Assembly (NCBI GenBank): GCA_944474755.1 | Contig: OX104112.1 | Coordinates: 17,696,273 to 17,760,272 of the forward strand | Length of the DNA stretch: 64,000 bases | DNA from: Limnoperna fortunei | Lineage: Eukaryota; Mollusca; Bivalvia; Mytilida; Modiolidae | Direction of reading: 5' to 3' | Part shown: piece by piece, positions 4,110 through 52,895 of the stretch | How the letters are laid out: each line of letters starts with the position of its first letter | Numbering within the stretch: the stretch's first letter is position 1 | Position numbers and translations under genes: made by a program | Notes under the pieces: generated by a model | Database searches by the model: none | What the model was told of the DNA's origin: nothing | Seen by the model: only the letters and a program-made list of their open reading frames with translations

Positions 4110-5948
4110 AACTACAATATTTTTTATAGAATGTTATTAAAATATTTTTTTAGATAAAGACCTTTAAAACTGTCAATTGTGGTTGAGCTTCTTACATGAT
4201 GCGAATGCGATAGCGTATTTCACAAAACACTACCTGATATTAAAAATTATCTTTTAAAAATCTGTACGAGCTCAAGGCACAAAAAGCATAAAAATTCACT
4301 ACGTCTGGTTGTCCTAGTGATGACTTCATAAACAAATATAAAAACAAACAAGTGTTCGAGTGTAAGTTGATTAATAGACTTAAAAACTAAAATAGATTTT
4401 CTATATACAAAATAATCAATAATTGGCATCTATTTCAATCAATAAAAAAGTTGTTTTGATGGTATGAAGATGTTATTAACATTAAGAATAATCCGTGCAG
4501 CTCTTTTCTGTAGTTTAAATATCTTATCCAGTTGCATGCATTTTTACAGCCAGCCCAAATTGTACAACAATAATTAAAAATGAGGAAAAATAATAGTGCC
4601 TCAGGTGAAATAAAACTTTACAAACGTTTCAAACGTTAAATTACAATCAATATGTACCCCTTAAATTTTGAGCATTTAACAGTTTCTAATAAGATACATC
4701 TATATTAATACATGTTTTTCTACATTTACTCAGTTTCTGTTTGGTTCCAATTAACATACATTGTGTTTTCTTAAGATTCATTTTAAGTTTATTATTATTC
4801 ATCCATTTTAGTGAGTTTTTCAGATCTTCTGTCAATTTATATAGTCGTTTACAAATAATATAAAGAATAAAGGACCTAATATTGACCATTGAGGTACGCC
4901 TATTGTAATATCTTTTGTTTCAAACAATGGACCATTCCATACAACACATTGTTCACTGTTTGACAAAAATGAACCAATTATAAGTATTTTCACAAATACC
5001 AAACATTTTTAGCTTATGTCATAAAACAACATAGTTAACTGTTTCAAATGCTTTACTTAAATCAATAAATAAAACTCCTGTTAACTTCCCCTCATCAATA
5101 TGTTTTAACCAACGATCAATTAAACTATTTAACACAGTTTCACATGAATGTTTGGGTTGAACCCCAGAATGACAATTTGTTATTAACTTAATTGTGGATA
5201 AATACTCACTAAAAGTTTTAAACACACGCCGTTCAAGTATTTTACTAACAATCGGTATTACTGAAACAGGTCTATAGTTGTTAACAAAATGTTCATCTCC
5301 CGATTTAAAGATAGGAGTTATTTTTGCTTGTTTCCATTCATTTTCAACACATGTTTCTAATGAAAAGTTAAAAATATATGTTAATATTTTAACACAACAT
5401 TGGATGTCATCTTAAGTAATTTTACCGAAACTTGATCTAAACCAGTAGCTTTAGGTGAAGACGTAGCAAAAAATTTCTTTTTTAACAAAAGATTCAGACA
5501 TCATAGGAAAATGAATTTGGAGGCATAATTTGATATACATCTTGCACAGAATCGTCAAAACGTTTAGCAAGATTATGACCAATATTACAGAAAAATTAAC
5601 TGCAACATCAGCTATTTCATTGTTATGAGAAGTTACTTGACCATTTACATTAATATAGGTGGTATTTACATAATTTGATTTTGTTGGCAAAACTTGTTTT
5701 AATCTATTCCACATGTCTTTGGGTTTCATGGATGTCTGTTCGATAGCCTCGTCAACAAATGCAATTTTTACTTCTCTACTTTTGGATACCACAATGTTGC
5801 GTGCTCTCTTGTAGAGGGCCCAGTCAGTATCGGTGTTTAATTTCAACGCTTTTGAATATAAATAGTCACGTTGGTCCATTGTTGATAAAATGTCATCATT
5901 GATCCACTGCTCCGATTTAACGTTTATTCTTCTCTCCTTGTATGGCAA
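4110..5948 (-). pseudogene. LINE reverse transcriptase and linker remnant
   Basis: The linker (5451-5948) includes PKDMWNRLKQVLP. RT pieces follow: PKATGLDQVSVKLLK, then KITPIFKSGDE and NNYRPVSVIPIVSKILERRV (about 5240-5450), then the motif A region LTGVLFIDLSKAFETVN (5019-5225). Next comes a GVPQWSILGPLFFILF block (about 4855-4905), where the canonical GVPQGS has W for G. The YADD catalytic block that should follow is missing: the sequence jumps to a TEDLKNSLKWMNNNKLKMN region. The C-terminal part (4247-4429 and down to about 4110) holds FVYRKSILVFK and HVRSSTTIDSFKGLYL. Several frame breaks are present. Confidence 0.88.
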
Positions 5949-6089
5949 ATGCTTGTCTATAATTTTAAGAAATTTATTTTTAAAACATGTCCACGTCTGA
6001 TTTATGTCATTACTTTCGTTTATATTATCCCAGTCTACATTCTCATATCTTCAACTAGTAAGGCTTCATGTTATTTTTTAAAGTTTCTG

Positions 6090-6761: not shown

Positions 6762-8417
6762 TTAACAAGAAAAGACGAAAACCGACTTTCCATTATCGTT
6801 TGTCACAAACAAAGTGCGATAATTTCTACTAAATGCCAGATCGAGAGGTAGACTAATTTTCTTCTCATGATCCAGTATGATGTCAATGACGTTCCCTTTT
6901 GGCGAAAGTCGATGTATGTTATTCGAGTCCCTACAAGCAATGTACAGATTACCTCCCTTGTCAGTAGTCACAGCTATAGGTACATTAAAGTTCTCAGGTG
7001 TACATATAAAACGTACTTCTCCACTGAGTTTGACACAGCCTACTGTGTTATAGTGATAACCAGTATAGTAGACACTATCATGTGGACCCGGATGTAGGTA
7101 GTTAATGTAACCACCAGGTATAGCTATTGTAGTTATTGGCTTCCCTTGTTTACTGAGGATGTAAATCTTCCCTTCATCATCACCAGCACAGATCTTATCA
7201 CCGACAACAGCTATACCGTAACACCAACCAGGGACAGAATGTGTACCAACGGACTTCATTGATTTTATGTCAATATACTCTATTGATTTCTGTTCAGGTA
7301 GGGATACTGCTGCTTTATCCTCACCTGGTATAATTGCAATATTCCACGGTTTATCAGATAACCTACAATCCTGTAGGTACTCACCACGGTCACTGTATAC
7401 CAGTAACTTTGTACTAAGACGGTTACAGAGTAGTAGACGGTTGTCGTCTGTCACAGCAATACTGGTTATCCAGACATCATCGGTTGATTTAATATCAAAC
7501 TTAAAGTCAAACACGAACTTTGCTGGCATCTGAATTGTTGTTGGTAAAACTTGATTTGATTTGGATACTTTATACTTGATCGGACATGGTGTAGACTCAA
7601 TGTGTACTGATCCAAAGGATTCGATCTGGAGTGGTTGCTGTGGTGATTGTTTAAATGAAATTGTAGAGGTAAACATTGATGCTATCATTTTCTTTATTTT
7701 AATATTGTATTCTGAAACTTTCAATTTGTACGAATATAATAAAATAAATAGTTGGTTCTCTGATCCATGTTTTGATACAAGATCTAATTTACTGGTAACC
7801 TCGTGAAGAGACTCTATCATTTCCAATAATGTGTCCTGATCAGATTTGATTTGAGTCTCGCATTTACTCTTTGTAGATTTGACCTCAGATATGACTTTCC
7901 TCTCGAAATCATCAAGACGTTCTACAATTTTAGATTTTATACGCGACACATTTCGCAGCACATCCGCTTCTTCATCATTCAGACTCTTTAAATTCGCATC
8001 GCGGTTGCAAATAAGTTTTTCCAAAGTTTCACGTAGGCTTGATACGGTACCAAATAAATCATCCATCATGGGTGATCTTCGTACTGCGTTTGAAGCAACG
8101 TCCACAGCAACGATTTTTGGACATATCCGGTGTGTTTCTGACATGCATGAACGACAGCATAGACAATCATGATCCACACAGAAAAAATCGAGCATCATTT
8201 CCTCGTGTCTAGTACAGGAATTTTTAACGGATAATGTTTCCATGGGCAACGATCCAGAATCGATTAAATGATGAAAGGCAAAAGTTTTAAATAAACTATG
8301 GGCATTTAGGCAATCCTTACAGAGATTCTCTTCACAATCAGTGCAATACTTTAAGGCCATTACGGGTGACACTTGGTTGCGTAAGCATGGGTCACAATTA
8401 TTCCTGGACGATGCCAT
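6762..8417 (-). CDS. B-box/coiled-coil/NHL-like TRIM family protein (no RING)
   Basis: A 551-residue protein in a single coding exon. Residues about 5-50 form a first B-box (CDPCLRN, then CTDCEENLCKDC). Residues about 66-110 form a second B-box (CTRHEEM, FCVDHDCLCCRSC, ETHR). Residues about 120-245 are charged and heptad-like, as in a TRIM coiled coil. Residues about 300-551 carry repeated beta-blade motifs (TSIAVTDDNRLLLCN, GIAVVGDKICAGDD, LAFSRNYRTLFVTND) consistent with an NHL-type propeller. There is no RING finger, so E3 ligase activity is not supported; a scaffold or regulatory role is an inference. The start is the first ATG after a good 3' splice site (TTTTCAG ending at 8424 on the minus strand), so at least one 5' untranslated exon lies upstream. 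Many similar intronless-coding TRIM genes occur in bivalve genomes. Confidence 0.9.
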   Translation of the reverse strand: MASSRNNCDPCLRNQVSPVMALKYCTDCEENLCKDCLNAHSLFKTFAFHHLIDSGSLPMETLSVKNSCTRHEEMMLDFFCVDHDCLCCRSCMSETHRICPKIVAVDVASNAVRRSPMMDDLFGTVSSLRETLEKLICNRDANLKSLNDEEADVLRNVSRIKSKIVERLDDFERKVISEVKSTKSKCETQIKSDQDTLLEMIESLHEVTSKLDLVSKHGSENQLFILLYSYKLKVSEYNIKIKKMIASMFTSTISFKQSPQQPLQIESFGSVHIESTPCPIKYKVSKSNQVLPTTIQMPAKFVFDFKFDIKSTDDVWITSIAVTDDNRLLLCNRLSTKLLVYSDRGEYLQDCRLSDKPWNIAIIPGEDKAAVSLPEQKSIEYIDIKSMKSVGTHSVPGWCYGIAVVGDKICAGDDEGKIYILSKQGKPITTIAIPGGYINYLHPGPHDSVYYTGYHYNTVGCVKLSGEVRFICTPENFNVPIAVTTDKGGNLYIACRDSNNIHRLSPKGNVIDIILDHEKKISLPLDLAFSRNYRTLFVTNDNGKSVFVFSC

Positions 8418-8659
8418 TATTACCTGAAAAATATTGAGTCAATGAACTATATTATTAAACTTCTAAACTAAAACAATAAGTACAGTTATTCGAAATACTG
8501 GTGGTTAATGTGTATTATAATACTTCATGCATAAATGCTGTCCTTTTATTGGACAGTAACCATGTGTTAATTTCTACTGATTCCGCTTTTAGCAACGTCC
8601 ATTATAGCAACGGGTGTTTATTCCTCGTGCTTTCGTCCCAACAGGTGATAGAAAAAAAT

Positions 8660-14858: not shown

Positions 14859-15985
14859 AAGCCAAAGTTGACAAAAAGCCATATTTATTGATATTAATAA
14901 TTCATTCATTTATATTAGTAAATCATTTATTAATATCAATAATTCATTTATTGATATCAATAATACATTTATTGATATTAATAATTCATTTGTTAATATC
15001 AATAATACATTTATTAATATCAATATTTCGTAGAGTTATTAATATTAATAATGTATTTATTGATAATAATAATTCATTTATTGATATCAATAAATCATTT
15101 ATTAATATTAATAACTCATTTATTGATATCAAATATGTATTTATTGATATCAATAAATCGGCGAATTATTAATATCAATAAAGCGCTTAAATGAGAACAG
15201 AGCAAGTGCTCCCTGTTGTCAAAACAACATGCAAAAGCGTTTATGACGTAATAATTACATCAATGTCCTAGGCTTCCAGCTATATGGCGGATGCAATACG
15301 CCGGGTTGCGAAGGAAGCGAAGGCTTGGCTCCCCTCCAGTCTCAATCTAATACTAGTACATGTAGCTCAGCTGACTATTTTGTCAGATCCAATGTAATTA
15401 TTACTTAGTGCAGCAGTGTCTCTTCAATCTGCCCTTTTTACTTGAGTGTACAGTACACAAAGGAGAATTCATTATTTTCTACACAAACGGTTAGGCGACT
15501 AGGATTTGAATTATTAATATTAATAAATGATTTATTGATATTATTAACAATAATTATTGATATTAATAAATGAATTATTAATATAAATAGATCAATTATT
15601 AATATATATAAATGAATTATTAATATTAACGAACGATTTGTTCATAGTAATAAATGAATTCTTAATATCAATAAATGAATTATTAATATCAATAAATCAG
15701 TTCATTTTATTAATATGAACAAATGAATTATTGATATTATTAAAGGAATTATTGATATTAATAAAGGATTTATTGATATTAATAATGGAATTATAAATAT
15801 TAATAATTCCATTGAGAATTATTAATATCTATAATTTGAATTATTGATATTAATAAATCAAATTATTTATATCAATAAATAGTTATGATATTAATAAATA
15901 ATTATTGACATTAATAAATGAATTATTGATATGAATAAATCAATTATTAATATCAATAAATACGGCTTTTTGTCCACTTGGGCTT
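14859..15985. mobile_element. Foldback element with AT-rich satellite arms
   Basis: The two ends are inverted: AAGCCAAAGTTGACAAAAAG on the left and, read on the other strand, AAGCCCAAGTGGACAAAAAG on the right. Each is followed by an array of a unit close to ATTCATTTATTGATATCAAT. The left array (14,884-15,180) and the right array (15,510-15,962) are in opposite orientation. The centre (15,180-15,510) is ordinary non-repetitive sequence with no recognisable protein. This is the architecture of foldback transposons, whose long inverted repeats contain internal tandem repeats. No unambiguous target duplication is visible. Confidence 0.8.
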
Positions 15986-23343: not shown

Positions 23344-23360
23344 TTAAAGGCATACAAGCT
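23344..23360 (+). repeat. Left TTAA target duplication and terminal inverted repeat
   Basis: TTAA (23,344-23,347) followed by AGGCATACAAGCT (23,348-23,360). It is an exact inverted match to 33,167-33,183. Confidence 0.88.
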
Positions 23361-24185
23361 GTCAAAATGTGTGAATTTTAAAGAATGAAAATTTAACTTG
23401 AAATTAAATATTTGTTTATAAATTCGTTGTTTTGCGGACGCAATATTACATCGTACTCGTTCACCAAACAAGAAACCCAATTTTTTCACTCTACAACTTC
23501 GTTTGTTTGGTGCCATGACGCTCATTAATTATTCATTGGAACCGATTACGAAGACTTCCGATTCGATGTTTTGAAACTTGACCATCTTCGCCATGGAAGC
23601 TGAGGTAATTACTTCTACGATGCACTCTTTGAAAAACAGCGATAATTACTTATTTTATTAATTGCATTTCAACTTCAGTGAAATACATGCTTATATAAAT
23701 GTCAATTGACACAAATACAAAGCCTTGTCACAGAAATTCGACGAAAAATTACTTTTATTTGAAAAAATACTTGCAATTTTGTATATTGGGGTACCGTTAG
23801 GGGAAATTGTAATACATGTGCGAAATTTGATAGATTGTCAAACTATTCTTTAGAAATATCTATTCATGATTTTAAAAGATATGTTACTTTTCTTTTTAAT
23901 AGCAATAAACAAAATCTGACTACTTATCAGGGAGTAGTTGTCGCCTTCAAATAGTTCTCGCTACACGATCGTCTGAATTTATGTGAAAAATAAGCGTAAC
24001 TTGTTTTAGATGGGAATAGTGAAATCTATCCAATTAAACTTGGGAAAATAACGGCATCTCAGCAAAATGGCGAGAATTTGATTCTGTTATTTAAATGGAG
24101 AGCCCTGCTACCTGACCAGCAGACTTTAAAAGTACTTTACATTTGTTTTTACATTTTGACAGTCATCTGATGAATCATCAACATA

Positions 24186-25023
24186 CTGTAAACGTATAAA
24201 TTTTTGCGGATTCTAATTTTCGCGTTTTTGTCAAGTTGAACACTTTCGCGGGTATTGATTTTCGCGGAATTCATCGAAGATAAAATAATTAAATATGACT
24301 ATATATACACCTATTTTTAATTTTTTTCCAAACCTACTTTAATCCTTTGAAAAAAGTTCACATACGTTAATGACGTGTGACTTTGCGTTCTTGGATAAAT
24401 TCGAAAACAATAACATTAAATATAGATTCATACCGGCTTCATGTACTGGGGAGTTACAACCCCTCGATTGATCAGGGAATGGCGAATTTAAAACCAAAGT
24501 CCGTGAATCATATGTGAACTGGTACAGCGATGAATTAAACAAGGAACTAAGTAAGGGGAAATCCGTCCAAGATGTCAAAATCGATTTAAAACTTTCTTAT
24601 CTTAAACCAAACAATGCAGCTTGGATGGTTAATGCATTTCAACAAATTAGACCTGAGACATTAATTCGAGGTTACTAGTAATCAGGCCGTCTTGATGTAC
24701 GCATTGTAAATAGATATGTATTGATTTTGTCAATAATTTGTAAAATATTCTTTGTATTTTTATTCACGCCAATTTAAGGTAAATAATATCAAACATTTGA
24801 TTTCAATAATTGATTGACGAAAATATAAACAATATGTTTTTTGTAATTAAGATAATTGCGTACAATTTATAACAGTTCTTACTCGATCAATAATTGATCT
24901 CTGACGTTGACCGTGTGTCTGTTTAGTATACCAAAGTTTTTCGAGGGTATCTATTTTCGCGCTTTTCTTGGTACCGCGAAAATAGCGAAAATTAGTACAA
25001 CGCGAAAATTACTATGTTTACAG
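24186..25023 (+). mobile_element. Pogo-like element inserted in the P2X7-like exon
   Basis: The ends are CTGTAAAC and GTTTACAG, flanked by TA on both sides (24,184-24,185 and 25,024-25,025), the TA target duplication of Tc1/mariner/pogo elements. Inner terminal regions share TTTTCGCG-rich sequence in inverted orientation. Removing the element and one TA rejoins the acidic/serine-rich exon sequence of the host gene smoothly, which confirms the boundaries. It carries a transposase C-terminal remnant. Confidence 0.87.
24370..24681 (+). pseudogene. Pogo-class DDE transposase C-terminal remnant
   Basis: Frame fragments read FAFLDKFENNNIKYRFIPAS, CTGELQPLD, an in-frame TGA, then VRESYVNWYSDEL and VDIKV-like DVKIDLKLSYLKPNNAAW, ending at TAG near 24,679. 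The order (PASCTGELQPLD, then FK...YVNWYSDEL, then DLKLSYLKP) is that of the last part of pogo/Tigger/Jerky-type transposases. The catalytic part is missing, so the element could only move with help from another copy. Confidence 0.78.
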
Positions 25024-26372
25024 TATTTAAGCAAACGCTCTAGCAGCAGCGAGAGTGACAGTCAGGAGCGTATTTCTTAGGGACTAAGAGAGGAAGAGGT
25101 AGAGGAGGCAGAGCTAGGGGCGCACGAGGTAGAGCAAGGGGCGCAGGACGTCGAGCTCGGGGTGTTTTATATGGACCTGCGCTGCCAACAAGAGCTGAAA
25201 GAGCCCAGATGTTACGCCAGGAGAGGGATGGACAACTTAGGGTATGTAAAATTATTCTATATATTTATATATACATAAATGTGTGAATGTGTGGTGGTAC
25301 TTGTCTAAATGATCCATATTTCATTTTAAAAAATTGTATAATTTCTAAATGTATTGGTGCACGCCCCAATACTTTTCATACATTACTATTTACTGTCCTT
25401 TTGACATGTGTTATATGCTTATATCTTCTTTCAGCTAACAGATGAAGGAAGACAGGATTTGCTTTGCAGGATTGTTGAAGCACACCCCCAATTTGTGTTC
25501 GACATCCTTACGAAGTCTACACAGGAACAACAAGGAGGATATCATCCTGCTCCAATTGTGACAGCCCCAGACTGGTGTCAATGCACACATTGCAGGGAAA
25601 TGCCCTCATATGAAGAAAAGCTGTGTTGCAACCAGTTTCCTATGAACTGCCTGTCAAGACTACAGGTATACAGGTTTTTTTTTTAACCTTGTACAACTTA
25701 CTTATTTATAAAATGAAATCAAATAAAAAAAATCATTCAAAAGTTTACAAATGATCATTAATAAGATTATAATATACAAGCGAAGATGATAAATAATATC
25801 TTGTTTCAGGACTTTGATCTTGTTGTCTTGGACGAAGTCATCTTGGCTGTTCCACAAAGATACATGCAAGATGTGTTTGCCTTGGACCACGACGAATATT
25901 ACAACAGAGGCAAGAGACACACTGCCTACAGATATTTTATTTTGTGGCACCATGGATATTTAGGTGCAGGCAATAGAAAAGTGATCCCTTCATTTTGTGT
26001 TTGGAGGATCAGAGACAAATATCCAGACCGTTTTGGGCAGTACACTGGTTTTCTGTTAGGACGACTTACATAACTGAAATATTGTTTTACCGTTGTTTTA
26101 TTTTTTAAAGTTTATTTTTATTAAAGTTGCTTCGTATTTTTTGAAGTGTTGTGTATGTAGTTGTCATATATTTCAAAAATATGGACCTAGGATTGGGTTG
26201 TACACAGACTGGTTTTGATTTATTCACATGATTTTCTTTGGAAGTATATACAGAACTGCATAAGTGGAAATTGGTTTGCTTTTGAAGACTGCCCCATGTT
26301 CTCTCTTTTAGATAAAACATAATAAATACAATTTAATTATTGCAAATCAAAATCTTAATCTTAACAAACACA

Positions 26373-26470
26373 TTATTATTATTATTATTATTTATCAAAT
26401 TTATATAGTGCCCTTTTCATAAACATGTTCAAAGGCACTTTAGATAACAAATTACAAGCAATATCATTAA
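26373..26470. repeat. Dispersed repeat between the two transposon genes
   Basis: A run of ATT trinucleotides is followed by TTTATATAGTGCCCTTTTCA and CAAAGGCACTTTAGA. This is similar to a TTATATAGCGC...CAAAGCGCTTT motif that I recall as common in many animal genomes. It lies in the intergenic gap between the convergent genes. Confidence 0.5.
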
Positions 26471-27938
26471 AATACTAAGGCAATACTATAACTAAAAAAG
26501 TACGACACACAATAAGGATAAGAATATGAAGAAATAAATTAAAATGTAGTGTTAACCTAGAATGAATTTATAATAATTAAATATCAACATCATACGAAAA
26601 ATATTCCATCGGAACTTCTTAGATATTGAATTGAAACTGGTCATCTGAAGTACAAAAATGTACGATCTCGTTTTGACGAAAATCTTGACTTTTGCTGCTG
26701 TACAATATCAGCTGTGGCAAGTGGTGGTATTGGCACCAACACTCTTGAAATGTGTCTAGGGTCATCAGCCTCTAGAACTACAGGCCTATTCATACCAATG
26801 TTGTCGTTTAGGCGCAATTCAATTACCTTCTGCATTAACTCGGTTATGTTATTGTATCGTTAATATTCTTTGACAGGGTAAGCTGACCAGCTTCCACTTT
26901 TTTTGTTAAAACTCCTTTGATACCTGAAATAGAAAACCTTTTATATACTTCTTAAATTATAACTAATTGAAATAAGTTAGCTAGTTGATGTATTGAATAA
27001 GCATGAATATACCTTAGTGTTACATCTCTGTTAACAATAGAAGGTCTGTTGATGTGTTTGTTGTGGTCAATCGCAGCTAACACGTTTCTTGATCTGTACG
27101 TTGGCGGGCGGTAGGCAATTCTTTTGGAGGCATACATCAAAATTAGATTTAGACAATTCTCCAATTCTGCAGTAGATCTGAAGAAAAAATTGAGAAGTTG
27201 ACAGGAATACATGGAAATACCCCCCAAAAAGAAAAGAATTTTCTCTATCCAATAAAAAATGCTTGTTATATAAAATAGAAATGAATTTTTCCAAGAAAAT
27301 AATGCTTCATTTCAGACATTTACAACAAGAATTACAACAATAACAATGTAAAACCAATTTTAAGAGATATACTGTAAAACCAACACATTTTGCACCAGAA
27401 AAGTGAGATAAATTCAACAGAAATTAAGTTATTGATGAATGGTTTTGAGAATACCCCTAAAAGCAATACATGTCGTTAGCATGAATCTGTTTAAATACCT
27501 GAAAGTTAAATAGTGATGAATCTGATTAAGGAATCTCTTGTCCAGGACAAGCTTTCTCAATGCCACATGAGCTGGACTACCTGGTTTTAGCCATCCCTTC
27601 TCTCTGTTGCTATCAAGTGGTCCATGTTGACAACAAACAATTTTTCCAGCACTGTCTTGAGGACATAGCCACTCATGTTTGTTTACAACATGGTTCAACA
27701 CTCCTGCCCAGACAACCTGAAAACAAAACATTATCGTTAAGCTATATAATGAAATAAGCAATATTCATCTCATCATGTGAACATTTCTTAGTTAACTATG
27801 TGTATGTGTTATCCAAAAGCAATTTACAAGAAATTTACATTATGGTTGAATGTCGACTATAAATATAGCTAGAGCTATAGACTCAATAATGAAAGTACTG
27901 TTATGGAATTAATTCTGAAAAAATATTCATAATTTCTG

Positions 27939-28208
27939 GAGGCCTCGGTGGCCGAGTGGTCAAGGTAGTTCGTCTACTATTGATCACGTGGTCTGTCAAC
28001 ACTGAGATTGCGGGTTCGATTCTCACTGCAGGCAGGGTGTACTCGACTCCAATCTTAATTGACAAGGATTGCCAGTTTTCCTAACGCAGGTCGGGGGTTT
28101 TCTCCGGGTACTCCGGCTTCCTCCCCCAATAAAAACTGGACGCCACGATATAGCTGAAAAATTGCTGAAAGTGGCGTTAAAACCATCAAAAAAAACAAAC
28201 AAACAAAC
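27939..28208 (+). mobile_element. tRNA-derived SINE, full length
   Basis: The head resembles a class II (Leu/Ser-like) tRNA: box A TGGCCGAGTGG (27,949-27,959) and box B GGTTCGATTCT near 28,013. It is followed by a conserved core (GGGTACTCCGGCTTCCTCCC), then CAATAAAAACTGGACGCC, then GCTGAAAGTGGCGTTAAA and a CAAACAAAC tail. It is inserted in the transposase intron between exons 9 and 10. It is the reference copy for the other SINE pieces in this window. Confidence 0.93.
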
Positions 28209-28727
28209 ATGATTTCTATTAAAAATATCTAGGAGTTATGCAGGGTGGTCACAAGATTCATTTTACCCCACAGGCTGGGTTTTTGCCTCCAACATGTTCA
28301 AGATTTCCATTCTTGATTTTATTTTCTAGTTACTATTATAATTTCTTTCTATAAAACAGTAAAACTAAAGTTTGCATACTACAAATTCTTCTTTAGTGTT
28401 ACAAATGTCGTAACAATGCCACAAGTGGTTGACAATGTCTTTTGACCATTCTGCCAATTCGCCAGTTTGCTTATCTTTGCTGGCAGCCTGAAAAAAAAAG
28501 TTATAAATGCAAAATGAAGTGAAATGTTTATGAATTTATAATTCATAAAAGATAAACAAATGCTAAACATTGAAAAGAACAAAATATTGTATAGAATTAA
28601 GCATACAACAGCCAACAATTGCCTTAACTTCCAATAAATTGTGTATGCATGTAATGGCATATAGCCCTTTTATGTTACTTGTGTTTTACAAATATTTGCA
28701 AATACAATGTCCGAATAAGAAAACTAA

Positions 28728-29423
28728 AGCCCCAGTCACATTAGAGCTTACGACCACTTGCGACCACCGGCGACGCGTAAAACCGACGATCATCGGCGAT
28801 TGTCTGCGACCAAACCCTCTTTGCGCAGAAAAATTTACTACCGCGATTATCGTACGACCAGTTATTGACAATCGTACGACAACTTGTCGTAAGACCATCG
28901 CACGACTACTAAATACTACTCAAGACTATCAGTGACTAATAATGTCACGTGGTCTGTGTCTTGTCACAGGAAATCTTTAACTAGTCTCTGACGATCGTAC
29001 GATGGTTGCAATTTATCGTAGAGAAGTCGCTAATTGTCATTTGTAATCGTGGGTGGTCGTAAGACAAGTCACTACTAATCGCACGATGATCTTAAGACTT
29101 TGGAAAGACTACCTGCGACCGAGGGACAAGGACATCGGCGCCGACCAGTTGAAGATTATTACAGACTTTCTAACGACGATCGTGCGACAGCCTAAGACCT
29201 TATAAGATCACTAGCGACCTGTTTGATCGCAAGGAGGTTTTTGTGCAAGCTCAAAAAAATCTCTGCTACTGAAATTGGTCGTGGGACCTTAATAAGATAA
29301 CCTGCGACTGTCGAAGATCACCGATGACCGTCGTAAGACTTTTTAAAGATTCTTCGCGACCAGAGGTCACTGGTGATCGTCAACTGGTCTTAAGTGGTCG
29401 TAAGCTCTAATGTGACTGGGGCT
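28728..29423. mobile_element. 696-bp MITE with TAA target duplication (Harbinger-like)
   Basis: The ends are inverted copies of AGCCCCAGTCACATTAGAGC followed by TTACGACCACTT, flanked by TAA at 28,725-28,727 and 29,424-29,426. A 3-bp TAA/TWA duplication is the PIF/Harbinger hallmark. The interior is unusually CpG-rich for this window, made of degenerate repeats of TGCGACC and GATCGTACGAC. It contains no transposase. It lies in intron 8 of the minus-strand transposase gene, ending only 14 bases from the splice donor of exon 8. Confidence 0.85.
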
Positions 29424-32400
29424 TAATTAAACAATACCCTGAAAATCTTCTTTGCAAAGTTCTTTGCGCCATGCCAGACATCGAAAGAATGTTGGATATT
29501 TGGGAAGTCTTTTTCTGAAAAAAAAGAGAATATTGATCATGATGCAAAACAAAATGTAAACTTAACAACCTTATTATCTTTCCATCTCATTCTGGTTATA
29601 GGTAGCAGCAAAATGAAGCATACCAATATTCGGCAGTAAACTAGTTAAGATTAGTGTTTTATTATAGGCTAATCCATCTTCATTTTAAATTGGTGTTTAA
29701 AGTATGATGTTTACCTGTAATGACATTGTCGAGCTAGCAAACTATATACAAAAAACAAGTTTCCATTGCTACATCATGTACTTGTAGTATTTAGACATTT
29801 ACAATAACATGCCCATTGCAAGATACAGAGGTACATACTTGAAATATGTTCTCAAATGATAATTATAAATTAAAACCACTTACTCATAACAACAGCTGCT
29901 ATCTGAGTGTGTGCATCTGTCACTACTTCTTTAATGTTTAAGTTGTTTCCAATGAGGTATCGCAATCCCTTTAAAAAACATGCCTTTTCTAAATTGCCAC
30001 TTTTGCGATCTGTGACCCTCTTGTCCATTGTTATAATGCTCAAGATTTCCTTAGAATCGTACTCCATAAAGGTGTACGAGCAGTACTGGGTTCTATGTCC
30101 AGGACTATCCATACGTCCATCTCCTGAAGTACAGCAATCAAACCCTTTAAATTACTACATTAATTTAATACCAATATTTAATCATTTCAAAGGAGACAGG
30201 CTTCTCATAGGAAAAGATAAATGAGACAATTCTTTTCAATGTTAAACTTATACAATGGCAACACAATAAGTGTGATAAAACGTTACCTATATAAATCCAT
30301 AACTGAAGCGATACAATCATTAAAGCTCACAAATCACTAAATATCATAATGAGCTGTAAGTTGTGCTTGATTTGAATGTGACTGTTCACAAAATGGTTTT
30401 TTTAAAATCACAATAGTTAATAAAGGACTAACCTAAAATTGTTATTTCTTTTCCAACATATCTTTGTAGCACATCTTCCTGATTGTCTATCCAATAACGG
30501 TCAACAACTGGTATTAAATAAGTCCTCTGAATCTTGTTAAAAGAGGACTCTCCAAGAAAAGGAAGGTTAATAAACTTGGCCAACATTGCTACTTTTTAAA
30601 AGTTGTTCCCCGAAAATAATATAGCAGCTGCAAAGAGTAGATCCCCACCATGAAGTCGATTATTTAGAATAGGCTGGGAACACCACTGTGCACCATGTGT
30701 CCTTTATTACAAACCTAAGAAAAATATAATCACACCTAAAAAGTTCATTGAAAATAATATCCATCTGTATAAAAAAGTATTTTCTGTATCTATTTTCTGG
30801 TATCATGTTTAGCTGAAACATCCAAGTATGTGCTAACAACATTACTCGTCGTGGCTAAACAGCACACTTGTAATAAAAATTAAATCAAATACATTTACTT
30901 TATTGGAAAAGTTATAAATCTTGCATGTATAGCTCATCGGGTGCTTTCATTTTTCCAACTGTCCTCCAAACATCATTTTAAAGTTTGTATTACTTGAAAA
31001 TGATTTCAAATTACATGTTAAAAGTATATACACTTAAATAAGCAATTATTATTCTCTCACCCATTTAACATATAAGGCCGAACCAATAACTTCTTTCTGT
31101 AGGGATACATTTTATCTACATTTATCAAAATTGCACACAGACTTGATGTTATAGTTGAATAGATTATCCAAACAACTGGAGAAGATGATGTATGGTGTGT
31201 CTCCAAGTAATTCATTGACATTTCCCAAGTTAATTTTGTTGATTCCAGGACCTCCCATCTCTGGCTTTAGAGATTCATCCTCCTCGTCAGTTGATTCATC
31301 CACGTCTGTATCATAAAAAACTATGTCATTTTTCTTTGATCTGTTTTAAAATTAAAAAAGTTCAATAAAAAGTTAACACAGGTTATATTACAATATTCAA
31401 AACCTGAGCATAAAAGCATCTCCTAGTCCTACAGCCTTTCGACACACATTTAGCTGAGCACTTTACACAAATTATTGCTTATGAAAGGTTAAAAAAAGCT
31501 GTTCAAAATGTTTACAAAATAATATACCTTATTGTAAGGTTAAAGCCAGGTTCATAATCCTCATCAGAAAGGTGATCGTCATCAAGATACGATTCTGAAA
31601 CATCAATAGTTAAACTGAAAAAAAAAGATTTCCGGACATGAAATAATAGAAATATATGACATGATAAAAAAGTATTACACAGACATGGCATAAAGATTTA
31701 TACAGTTAAATGGAAAATCTAAAAACAAGATTGCTACATGTAGCCTTATGTCCACATGTCGTTTATGAGAATTAAGATAATAACAACTTGACATTATATT
31801 ATTATAGTATTAATAATTAATCAACATGACAAAGATAACTGATGGTCCACCAAATATTACACTGAGGGACACAAAGTTACTTACTCGAAGGGATTTAAAA
31901 AGTACTTGACATATTACAAGGGGTGCTCTATTGTTGACAACCTGTTGGTTCTTCTTCATGACTAAGTGAATGGAACTCTTCTACTCCAGACATTTCATTA
32001 TTACTGAAAATGAAATACATTTTTATAAATAGTTATGAACTGGACATGGAGGGTAAAGTAAACTTGTGTTACACCACATGACACTTGTGCATATTTCAAG
32101 TACATTTATGTGGGCCATAAGGTTGCAATCAGTGCATTTTATGAAACATTAATTAAAGAAATGTAACTGAAATCTGACATACATCTGCATGCTATCTAAT
32201 ACAAAAATAAAAAAATGGATTTGATATTTGATATGAATTTACATTAAAACAGAAATCAGGATAAATCGACATGTGATACAAACCATACCTATTGACTGTA
32301 TCATGATCTGAGGATGTTATTTCTGAAACATCAGAAGGAAGGACCATAAAATGATTGCCTGGGCCAGGAGTAGATGTCAGCTTCTGCATATGGATGTTAT

Positions 32401-33166
32401 TATGGTCAATATCAACCAGCCTTTTCTTTGCCATGAAGGATCCGTCCTCAGGTCGATTTATGTAGCTTCAAATTTATATAAAAATAAAACATTATGTTTT
32501 TGGGTGGAATTCATGTAAAAATCTATATCCGTTAAAATTTCCCCTTGGTTGGCCCCTTAATTTTCAGTCTAGTTTTACATTGCATTTGTCAAACAATTAC
32601 GCCAACGAGCTCGAATAAAACGAATGGAAATGACTATATACGTTAGGGATAAATTTATTAATACTTATAATTTTATTTTAAAATGCATTTGACTAAGAAA
32701 AACAAGAAATAAGTACTCGTGCATAACACTCACCATGCAATCAAAACTTTCGCAACTTCAGCATGTGTTTTGACATTCAACTCCTCTTTTATTTCCATCC
32801 AACGCTCGTGTTGGTCACCAAGGCATATCCTGGTTTGATTATATTTAGCCGTGGAATCTTTCTTTTTTCTTTTACGGGCACTATCAGTTAAAATTCTCTT
32901 TCGTCCTCTGTTCGATTTTCTTTCCGACATCTTTTCTTCCTAACAACGCACGCGCATAATTTGCATACGACTGGTAACGATCGGACATCGTAGATTTTAC
33001 GATTGAATTTCTTACTGGATGGAAGAAATTCAGATGATAAATTTAAGTTAAAAACCTTAATTATTAAAATTGTTTTTAAAGAAAAAAATCATTTTATCAT
33101 TATGAATGTGACAGGAGAGGTAAAAATCAATGCTTAATAATGACAACGAAAAATATGAAAAATATT

Positions 33167-33183
33167 AGCTTGTATGCCTTTAA
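33167..33183 (-). repeat. Right terminal inverted repeat and TTAA target duplication
   Basis: AGCTTGTATGCCT (33,167-33,179) followed by TTAA (33,180-33,183), the exact inverse of the left end at 23,344-23,360. Confidence 0.88.
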
Positions 33184-51915: not shown

Positions 51916-52154
51916 GAGGCCTCGATGGCCGAGTGGTTAAGGTAGTTTGAGATTGCAGGTTCGAGTCTCACTGCGGACAGAGTTTACTCGACTCCAATCT
52001 TAATTGACAAGGATTGCTAGTTTTCCTACCGAAGGTCCGGGGTTCTCTCCGGGTACTCCGGCTTCCTCCCCCAATAAAAACTGGACGCCATGAAATAGTT
52101 GAAAAATTGCTGAAAGTGTCGTTAAACACCATTCAAACAAACAAACAAACAAAC
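51916..52154 (+). mobile_element. tRNA-derived SINE with internal deletion in the head
   Basis: Box A region GATGGCCGAGTGGTTAAGGT, then a jump to GATTGCAGGTTCGAGTCTCA (box B). About 35 bases found between these boxes in the 27,939 copy are missing. Core and tail are intact, ending in CAAACAAACAAAC. Confidence 0.92.
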
Positions 52155-52895
52155 AGAACACACTATAGATACTCTGGGGATAGATTAGAAACTGCAGATA
52201 AAAGGTATGTACAGTTCATTGAGGCATAGGGTATAATATTTGCGAAATTAATATGATTTGCATTGAGACATTGAGACATTTCTAAAAATAAACGACACAT
52301 TTGGAAATATTAGTGCTAGTGAGAGATGCTGCTGACATTTTAAAGATGATTAATATTATTAAGATATGTGAAGGAAGATGTACGTAACGCTTAATTTTTA
52401 ACTAGATATTAACAGGTTTGTCCTTACAATAATTATTTCTTGTGTATTTAAGACACTGTGAGCCTGTGTAATACCGACAATGCTGTTCAAAATAGAAAAA
52501 GTGCCACCTACTAAAGCAAGATTGAAACATTTTTGTTGAAAAATAGCTTATAATGACTTAAATTACTGTTTGTAAGCATACTAATTATTAATCAACGAAT
52601 AACATGTTATTTTGGTAAACGGAAAGCAGGTCACGGGAAAAGGTCACAAGGAAAAAAGTCATAATATGAAAATATGTTATATATATTAGAATGATAATTG
52701 TGTTATTTTGTCCAGCATGTTATATTTGGTTCTTTGTTTTAAATGGGACATTAAAATCACTGCTTACTTCGCATCCGTTTTTAAGACATAAGTGCATTGT
52801 CATCCCGTTACAGTTATTCAAAATTAAATTATCATATACTAGTACTGAGTAAATTATATTTTTGCATATATGATACTTATATATTTTCAATGGAG

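Follow-up and report, generated by a model that had tools for sequence, protein, structure and literature searches.

A decayed Kolobok-type transposon with a transposase gene and a P2X7 ballast-domain gene in the bivalve Limnoperna fortunei

Ends and genes of the element

A stretch of 64,000 nucleotides of the Limnoperna fortunei genome (assembly GCA_944474755.1, contig OX104112.1, positions 17,696,273 to 17,760,272 of the forward strand; hereafter the window) contains an element that is bounded by TTAA and short inverted repeats and carries two genes (Table 1). One gene encodes a transposase, and the other, KolX, encodes a protein with the ballast domain of the P2X7 receptor. We interpret the element, with a probability of about 0.94, as a Kol0-type Kolobok transposon, a copy, now degenerate, of an autonomous form with two genes. 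The initial annotation of the window had described two convergent spliced genes between the ends; they were recovered as a 12-exon transposase gene on the minus strand and a 4-exon ballast gene on the plus strand.

The sequence AGGCATACAAGCT behind TTAA occurred at just two sites in the window, 23344-23360 (plus strand) and 33167-33183 (minus strand). The 17-base match that had been reported for these ends (TTAA and a 13-bp terminal inverted repeat) is exact, and no further site was found in the window with up to 3 mismatches allowed. The match grows to 20 bases (TATTTAAAGGCATACAAGCT) through a palindromic flank common to both sides. When the outer 300 bp of both ends were compared, the longest common stretch was the same 17 bases and the next longest was 10. 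As a control for chance, 100 Markov-1 random sequences with the composition of the window were searched for any TTAA+13 inverted pair at a spacing of 0.5 to 15 kb. Such a pair was present in 1 of the 100 sequences, compared with two pairs in the real window, the other of which sits inside AT-rich tandem arrays at 14.9-15.9 kb. The inverted repeat by itself is unusual but not decisive, and it is the copies elsewhere that decide. The two AT-rich arrays (14883-15962) consist of ~21-bp units and are seemingly reverse complements of each other.

All 11 transposase introns have GT-AG borders. The catalytic residues D357, D425 and E577 were present in all 16 aligned transposases, and D447 and H450 of the D-x-x-H motif were present in 15 and 14 of them, respectively. 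Between this motif and the last E lies a zinc finger, whose H507 and H512 were found in 16/16 sequences and C527 and H529 in 15/16. An RNase H fold was predicted in the model of a homologue, with the ISCth4, P element and Hermes transposases as the closest structures. Homologues were found in molluscs, echinoderms, acorn worms, turtles and fish among the matches listed (at least 120). The best protein matches point, by themselves, to a bivalve as the probable source. The Sinanodonta homologues of KolX and the transposase have consecutive locus tags (ACJMK2_012892 and _012893) and are on equally long contigs.

The ballast protein of the window matched PF20478 (E 3.5e-29) and the solved P2X7 structure (E 1.1e-17). 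The equivalent of C572, the seventh zinc-binding cysteine, is Phe in the window and its duplicate on the same contig (C2) and Cys in copies on contigs C15, C13 and C9, so that at the level of the element family all seven cysteines of Kol0 KolX proteins are present. Of the five nucleotide-contact residues of rat P2X7, three are kept in the window KolX (R546, H547 and R578). Among 15 KolX homologues, both Arg equivalents (R546 and R578) were present in all, and the H547 equivalent was present in 11, nine of them from named bivalves. According to Rump et al. 2020 (PMC7016195), R546 and R578 are the sole residues of the nucleotide site to be retained beyond deuterostomes; this does not hold for the window KolX, which has the H547 equivalent too. 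The AlphaFold model of the KolX homologue P0001 was poor (predicted local distance difference test score, pLDDT, 50) and was not used.

Table 1. Features of the element in window coordinates
Feature	Coordinates	Strand	Remarks
Left TTAA target-site duplication	23344..23347		exact inverted pair in the window; TTAA at all 12 element-type 13-mers genome-wide
Left terminal inverted repeat AGGCATACAAGCT, 13 bp	23348..23360	+	exact inverted pair in the window; termini 5'-AG...CT-3'
KolX gene, 4 exons	23593-26073	+	convergent with the transposase gene
KolX exon 1	23593..23604	+	MEAE, donor GT; Sinanodonta homologues P0001/P0002 start MEAESSDGS/MEAEPSDGS
KolX exon 2	24163..25241	+	encodes the acidic-serine and Arg-Gly-rich part; interrupted by the nested 840-bp element, one frameshift; open in the C15 copy
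Nested 840-bp TA-flanked element, CTGTAAAC ends	24184..25024		C2 duplicate and C15 copy have only the bare TA (clean empty site)
KolX exon 3	25435..25665	+	six of the seven ballast zinc-binding cysteines
KolX exon 4	25810..26073	+	remaining ballast domain and stop; R546, H547, Y550 and R578 equivalents
Kolobok-type DDE transposase gene, 12 exons, broken	26641..32930	-	exon model and homologues
Transposase exons 1-6	32930-32734, 32465-32289, 32003-31942, 31594-31528, 31340-31061, 30714-30433	-	
Transposase exons 7-12	30123-29884, 29514-29438, 28487-28380, 27716-27499, 27177-27013, 26923-26641	-	
Nested SINE-like (short interspersed nuclear element-like) insertion	27938..28209	+	ATTTCT duplication; absent from the C15 copy (clean empty site), present in the C2 duplicate
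Nested 0.7-kb element, 40-bp inverted ends AAGCCCCAGTCACATTAGAGCTTACG... (95% complementary)	28727..29424		lacking in the C2 duplicate and in C15, but the site is not clean
Right terminal inverted repeat	33167..33179	-	exact inverted pair in the window
Right TTAA target-site duplication	33180..33183		inverted pair in the window; TTAA at element ends elsewhere

Copies in the genome and their decay

The copy census comprised all exact occurrences of the 13-mer in the window's own 1.335-Gb genome, in which the window lies in contig C2. There were 25 occurrences, against 5 of the reversed control. The surroundings of all 25 were read, and TTAA adjoined 12 of 12 element ends and 0 of 13 non-element 13-mers. 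The element ends were located in the window (two), at C2:15.589-15.598 Mb (two), C15:12.172-12.181 Mb (two) and C12:49.480 Mb (two), and on C5, C8, C9 and C13 (one each).

The C2:15.59-Mb copy is not an independent insertion, since its flanks are the window's own and it sits in a duplication spanning the window (~94-99.8% identity in the main pieces); it may be a true duplication or an unmerged haplotype. The duplicated segment (window 1-64000) lies 2.1 Mb away at C2:15564500-15633500. It is mostly 94-98% identical to the window left of the element and >99% identical over most of the right side.

The C15 copy is 96.5% identical to the element and in the opposite orientation. It has both ends with TTAA, its two genes are arranged convergently as in the window, and its flanks are unrelated to those of the window. 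The order of the transposase and ballast exons is also kept in the C13 and C9 copies, with no match to transposase exon 8 in C9. Only transposase exons 1-6 were matched in the C8 copy. The C12 copy is an ends-only derivative of 468 bp (both TTAA counted) with the outer 112 bp of the left end and 358 bp of the right end, and 51 bp are left at one end in C5. Both genes were thus present in four of the five independent gene-bearing insertions read (the window with its C2 duplicate, C15, C13 and C9), the fifth, C8, being deleted. Because the copies on C15, C13, C9, C8 and C12 share ends or genes and not flanks, the ends and the two genes form one mobile unit. A TTAA transposon holding a transposase and a P2X7-ballast gene had been proposed in the initial annotation, and the copies bear it out: the 13-mer adjoins TTAA at element ends throughout the genome, both genes lie within the same ends in C15, and the homology stops there at TTAA.

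Of the 9.8 kb, ~1.8 kb belongs to the three nested elements, and the element proper is therefore ~8.0 kb; the previously reported size of 9.8 kb is right as the span between the ends and not as the size of the element, and the nested elements and gene breaks had not been noted before. The element at 24184-25024 holds a stretch that by eye resembles the end of a pogo/Tigger transposase. A repeat ~90% identical to the SINE-like insertion, seen through the C2 duplicate, is also located at 51948-52155. Its transfer RNA (tRNA)-like head is a judgment by eye only, since no tRNA was detected by ARAGORN in the window. The element at 28727-29424 has many short CGAC-type repeats.

The transposase gene of the window is interrupted by three in-frame stops, near 31113, 30597 and 26861, and by one frameshift near 30697, all of which recur in the C2 duplicate; the ballast-domain exons are open. 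The window copy is inactive. In the C15 copy, the transposase gene and the ballast gene are each broken by one stop, and several breaks are present in the C13, C9 and C8 copies.

Elsewhere in the window, an open frame of 558 residues (6762-8438, minus strand) has B-box-like cysteine clusters and NHL-like repeats and appears TRIM-like by eye. Two open frames at 5019-6050 (minus strand) resemble, also by eye, the reverse transcriptase of non-LTR (non-long terminal repeat) elements.

Assignment to Kolobok and alternative explanations

Kolobok transposons are characterized by TTAA duplications and RR/YY termini, and those of the Kol0 group encode a DDD/E transposase and KolX (Kojima & Bao 2022, PMC9587614; cited here and below from the available part of its text). 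KolX resembles P2X7 residues 476-595 and has seven conserved cysteines around two zinc ions (PMC9587614). The window element resembles the Kol0 lineage (type Kolobok-1_XT) in its TTAA duplication, RR/YY termini, ballast-fold KolX and DDD/E transposase with C/DxxH motif and zinc finger. It differs in being a new and decayed family with a 12-exon transposase. AG...CT termini were read in the window and in the C15 and C12 copies, in line with the 5'-RR...YY-3' rule of Kolobok. The hesitant assignment of the transposase as Kolobok-like in the initial annotation fits the D-x-x-H motif, the zinc finger, the termini and the KolX-type protein.

KolobokP, a bivalve-rich Kolobok lineage, shares with the element the superfamily and the two genes on opposite strands, but it has a His-Me finger nuclease where the window element has the ballast gene; no such nuclease was seen in the window, where no dedicated search was made. 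In KolobokP, KolobokE and KolobokD, a CCHC zinc finger follows the first catalytic D, whereas the window transposase has only two cysteines between D357 and D425 and no CCHC finger. The terminal direct repeats of KolobokP are 450 or 660 bp long. In the window, the longest direct-repeat pairs among the 20 of 41 repeat families listed measured 33 bases, and the outer 300 bp of the element share no direct repeat of more than 10 bases. Identity with KolobokP was rejected because long direct repeats are lacking. Compared with the P2X7 ballast domain and nanor (PMC7016195), the window KolX has six of the seven zinc cysteines (seven in C15, C13 and C9) and the R546, H547, Y550 and R578 equivalents, but it has Phe for C572, no R574 and K583 equivalents, no channel part and an Arg-Gly-rich amino terminus.

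The Kol0-type interpretation is directly supported by the ends, the TTAA, the enclosure of the two genes by these ends in independent insertions, the ballast homology and the decay of the copies, and for the transposase family by homology and a predicted fold. The transposase, as an RNase-H-fold DDE enzyme of the hAT/P/MuDR assemblage, would bind the short inverted ends, excise the element and insert it at TTAA, which would be duplicated, by a presumed cut-and-paste chemistry. KolX would be the second protein that the element itself supplies, a small one in which a zinc-binding ballast fold is joined to an acidic-serine/Arg-Gly tail. Any function of KolX is one that we infer, and most likely it would bind nucleic acid and assist transposition or expression as an accessory factor.

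Several observations weigh against this interpretation. The window KolX has six zinc cysteines, not seven. In the C8 copy, the ballast exons are missing, as are exons 7-12 of the transposase, and the opposite ends of the C13, C9, C8 and C5 copies were not found within 15-25 kb. None of the gene-bearing copies read is intact, and the activity of the element can therefore only be inferred. The match to the Pfam Mutator model (19.8 bits) is under the curated cut-off of 26.5. In a quick tree (35 rows, no Repbase references), the window transposase joined Sinanodonta with full support, and the Kolobok lineage was not decided. Pairwise ratios of nonsynonymous to synonymous change between the decayed copies were 0.41-1.22 for the transposase (10 pairs) and 0.32-1.15 for KolX (6 pairs); with few changes, they are uninformative and no proof of selection on KolX. 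No clean empty TTAA site was demonstrated, and no empty site matching the joined C15 or C12 flanks was present among the loci compared. The joined window flanks aligned at 72-74% across the junction with C2:15628357-15628549 (two copies ~5.1 kb apart), with only 14 bases on the left side of the junction. These 14 bases alone were matched by just 2 of 1623 TTAA sites, but the 160-base left flank scored at chance level, since 119 of 300 control TTAA sites did as well. The diverged C2 paralogue was not accepted as the empty site on account of the short left side and the chance-level flank; it is a possible diverged empty site, as a hint and not proof. The repeat, at 858-1050 and 5957-6149 of C2 locus L034, has ~72% identity with the flank on the right of the insertion and continues 14 bases past the TTAA junction.

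Instead of belonging to the transposon machinery, the ballast gene might be a passenger, taken from the host and enclosed by the ends in this lineage. This is unlikely, although no function of KolX is reported in the literature as far as its available text goes, selection on KolX is not clear and, in the available text of PMC7016195, ballast genes are linked to two marker genes across invertebrates, which is read there as ancestral synteny. The joint presence of both genes in four of five independent insertions, the consecutive Sinanodonta locus tags and the report that Kol0 elements of other animal groups have KolX as their second gene (PMC9587614) all speak against capture. An origin from another TTAA group, either piggyBac or a new one, is very improbable. 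The TTAA duplication is common to piggyBac, and a few piggyBac families have a KolX-like protein (PMC9587614), but those versions are without most of the cysteines, all seven of which are present in C15, C13 and C9 and six in the window. In addition, the transposase core (a 325-residue piece, Pfam) weakly matched Mutator/MULE models and no piggyBac model, and the D-x-x-H motif, zinc finger and AG...CT termini also argue against it. A chance inverted repeat around two unrelated host genes, for which the rate of ~1/100 random windows leaves some room, was rejected on the random-sequence control and is refuted by the C15 copy with the same ends, genes and TTAA in other flanks, with element ends also on C5, C8, C9, C12 and C13.

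Implications for ballast-domain genes

The element adds a new but inactive example to the Kol0-type Kolobok transposons, and its pairing of transposase and ballast gene was already published in 2022. The initial annotation had offered inclusion in a transposon as an explanation of how the ballast domain spread; the inclusion is supported, but the idea is already in print (PMC9587614). The same is true of the evolutionary conclusion that the P2X7 ballast came from a Kolobok protein, P2X7 having arisen from a P2X4-like gene fused with KolX (PMC9587614). The earlier report of ballast domains across animals (PMC7016195) has 'transpos' 0 times in its available text. In literature searches, PMC9587614 was the sole match that joined the P2X7 ballast domain with transposon or Kolobok with KolX; Kolobok with P2X7 gave the same paper and one review naming each word once, and a search by Pfam accession gave nothing relevant among the five papers listed.

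A bolder and rather improbable reading is that KolX acts as a guanine-nucleotide-binding cofactor subunit of Kolobok transposition. It is suggested by analogy, because the P2X7 ballast holds guanosine tri- and diphosphate (GTP/GDP) and zinc sites (PMC9859053), the P-element transposase, a fold relative, positions transposon ends using bound GTP (PMC7776569; both from the available text), and three of the five contact residues are kept in the window KolX. If so, the nucleotide site of P2X7 would be the relic of a transposition cofactor.

The independent insertions in one genome show that invertebrate ballast-domain genes can be transposon cargo (KolX) and not receptor relatives. Several bivalve proteins among the matches listed are named 'P2X purinoceptor 7-like', and such names therefore need caution.

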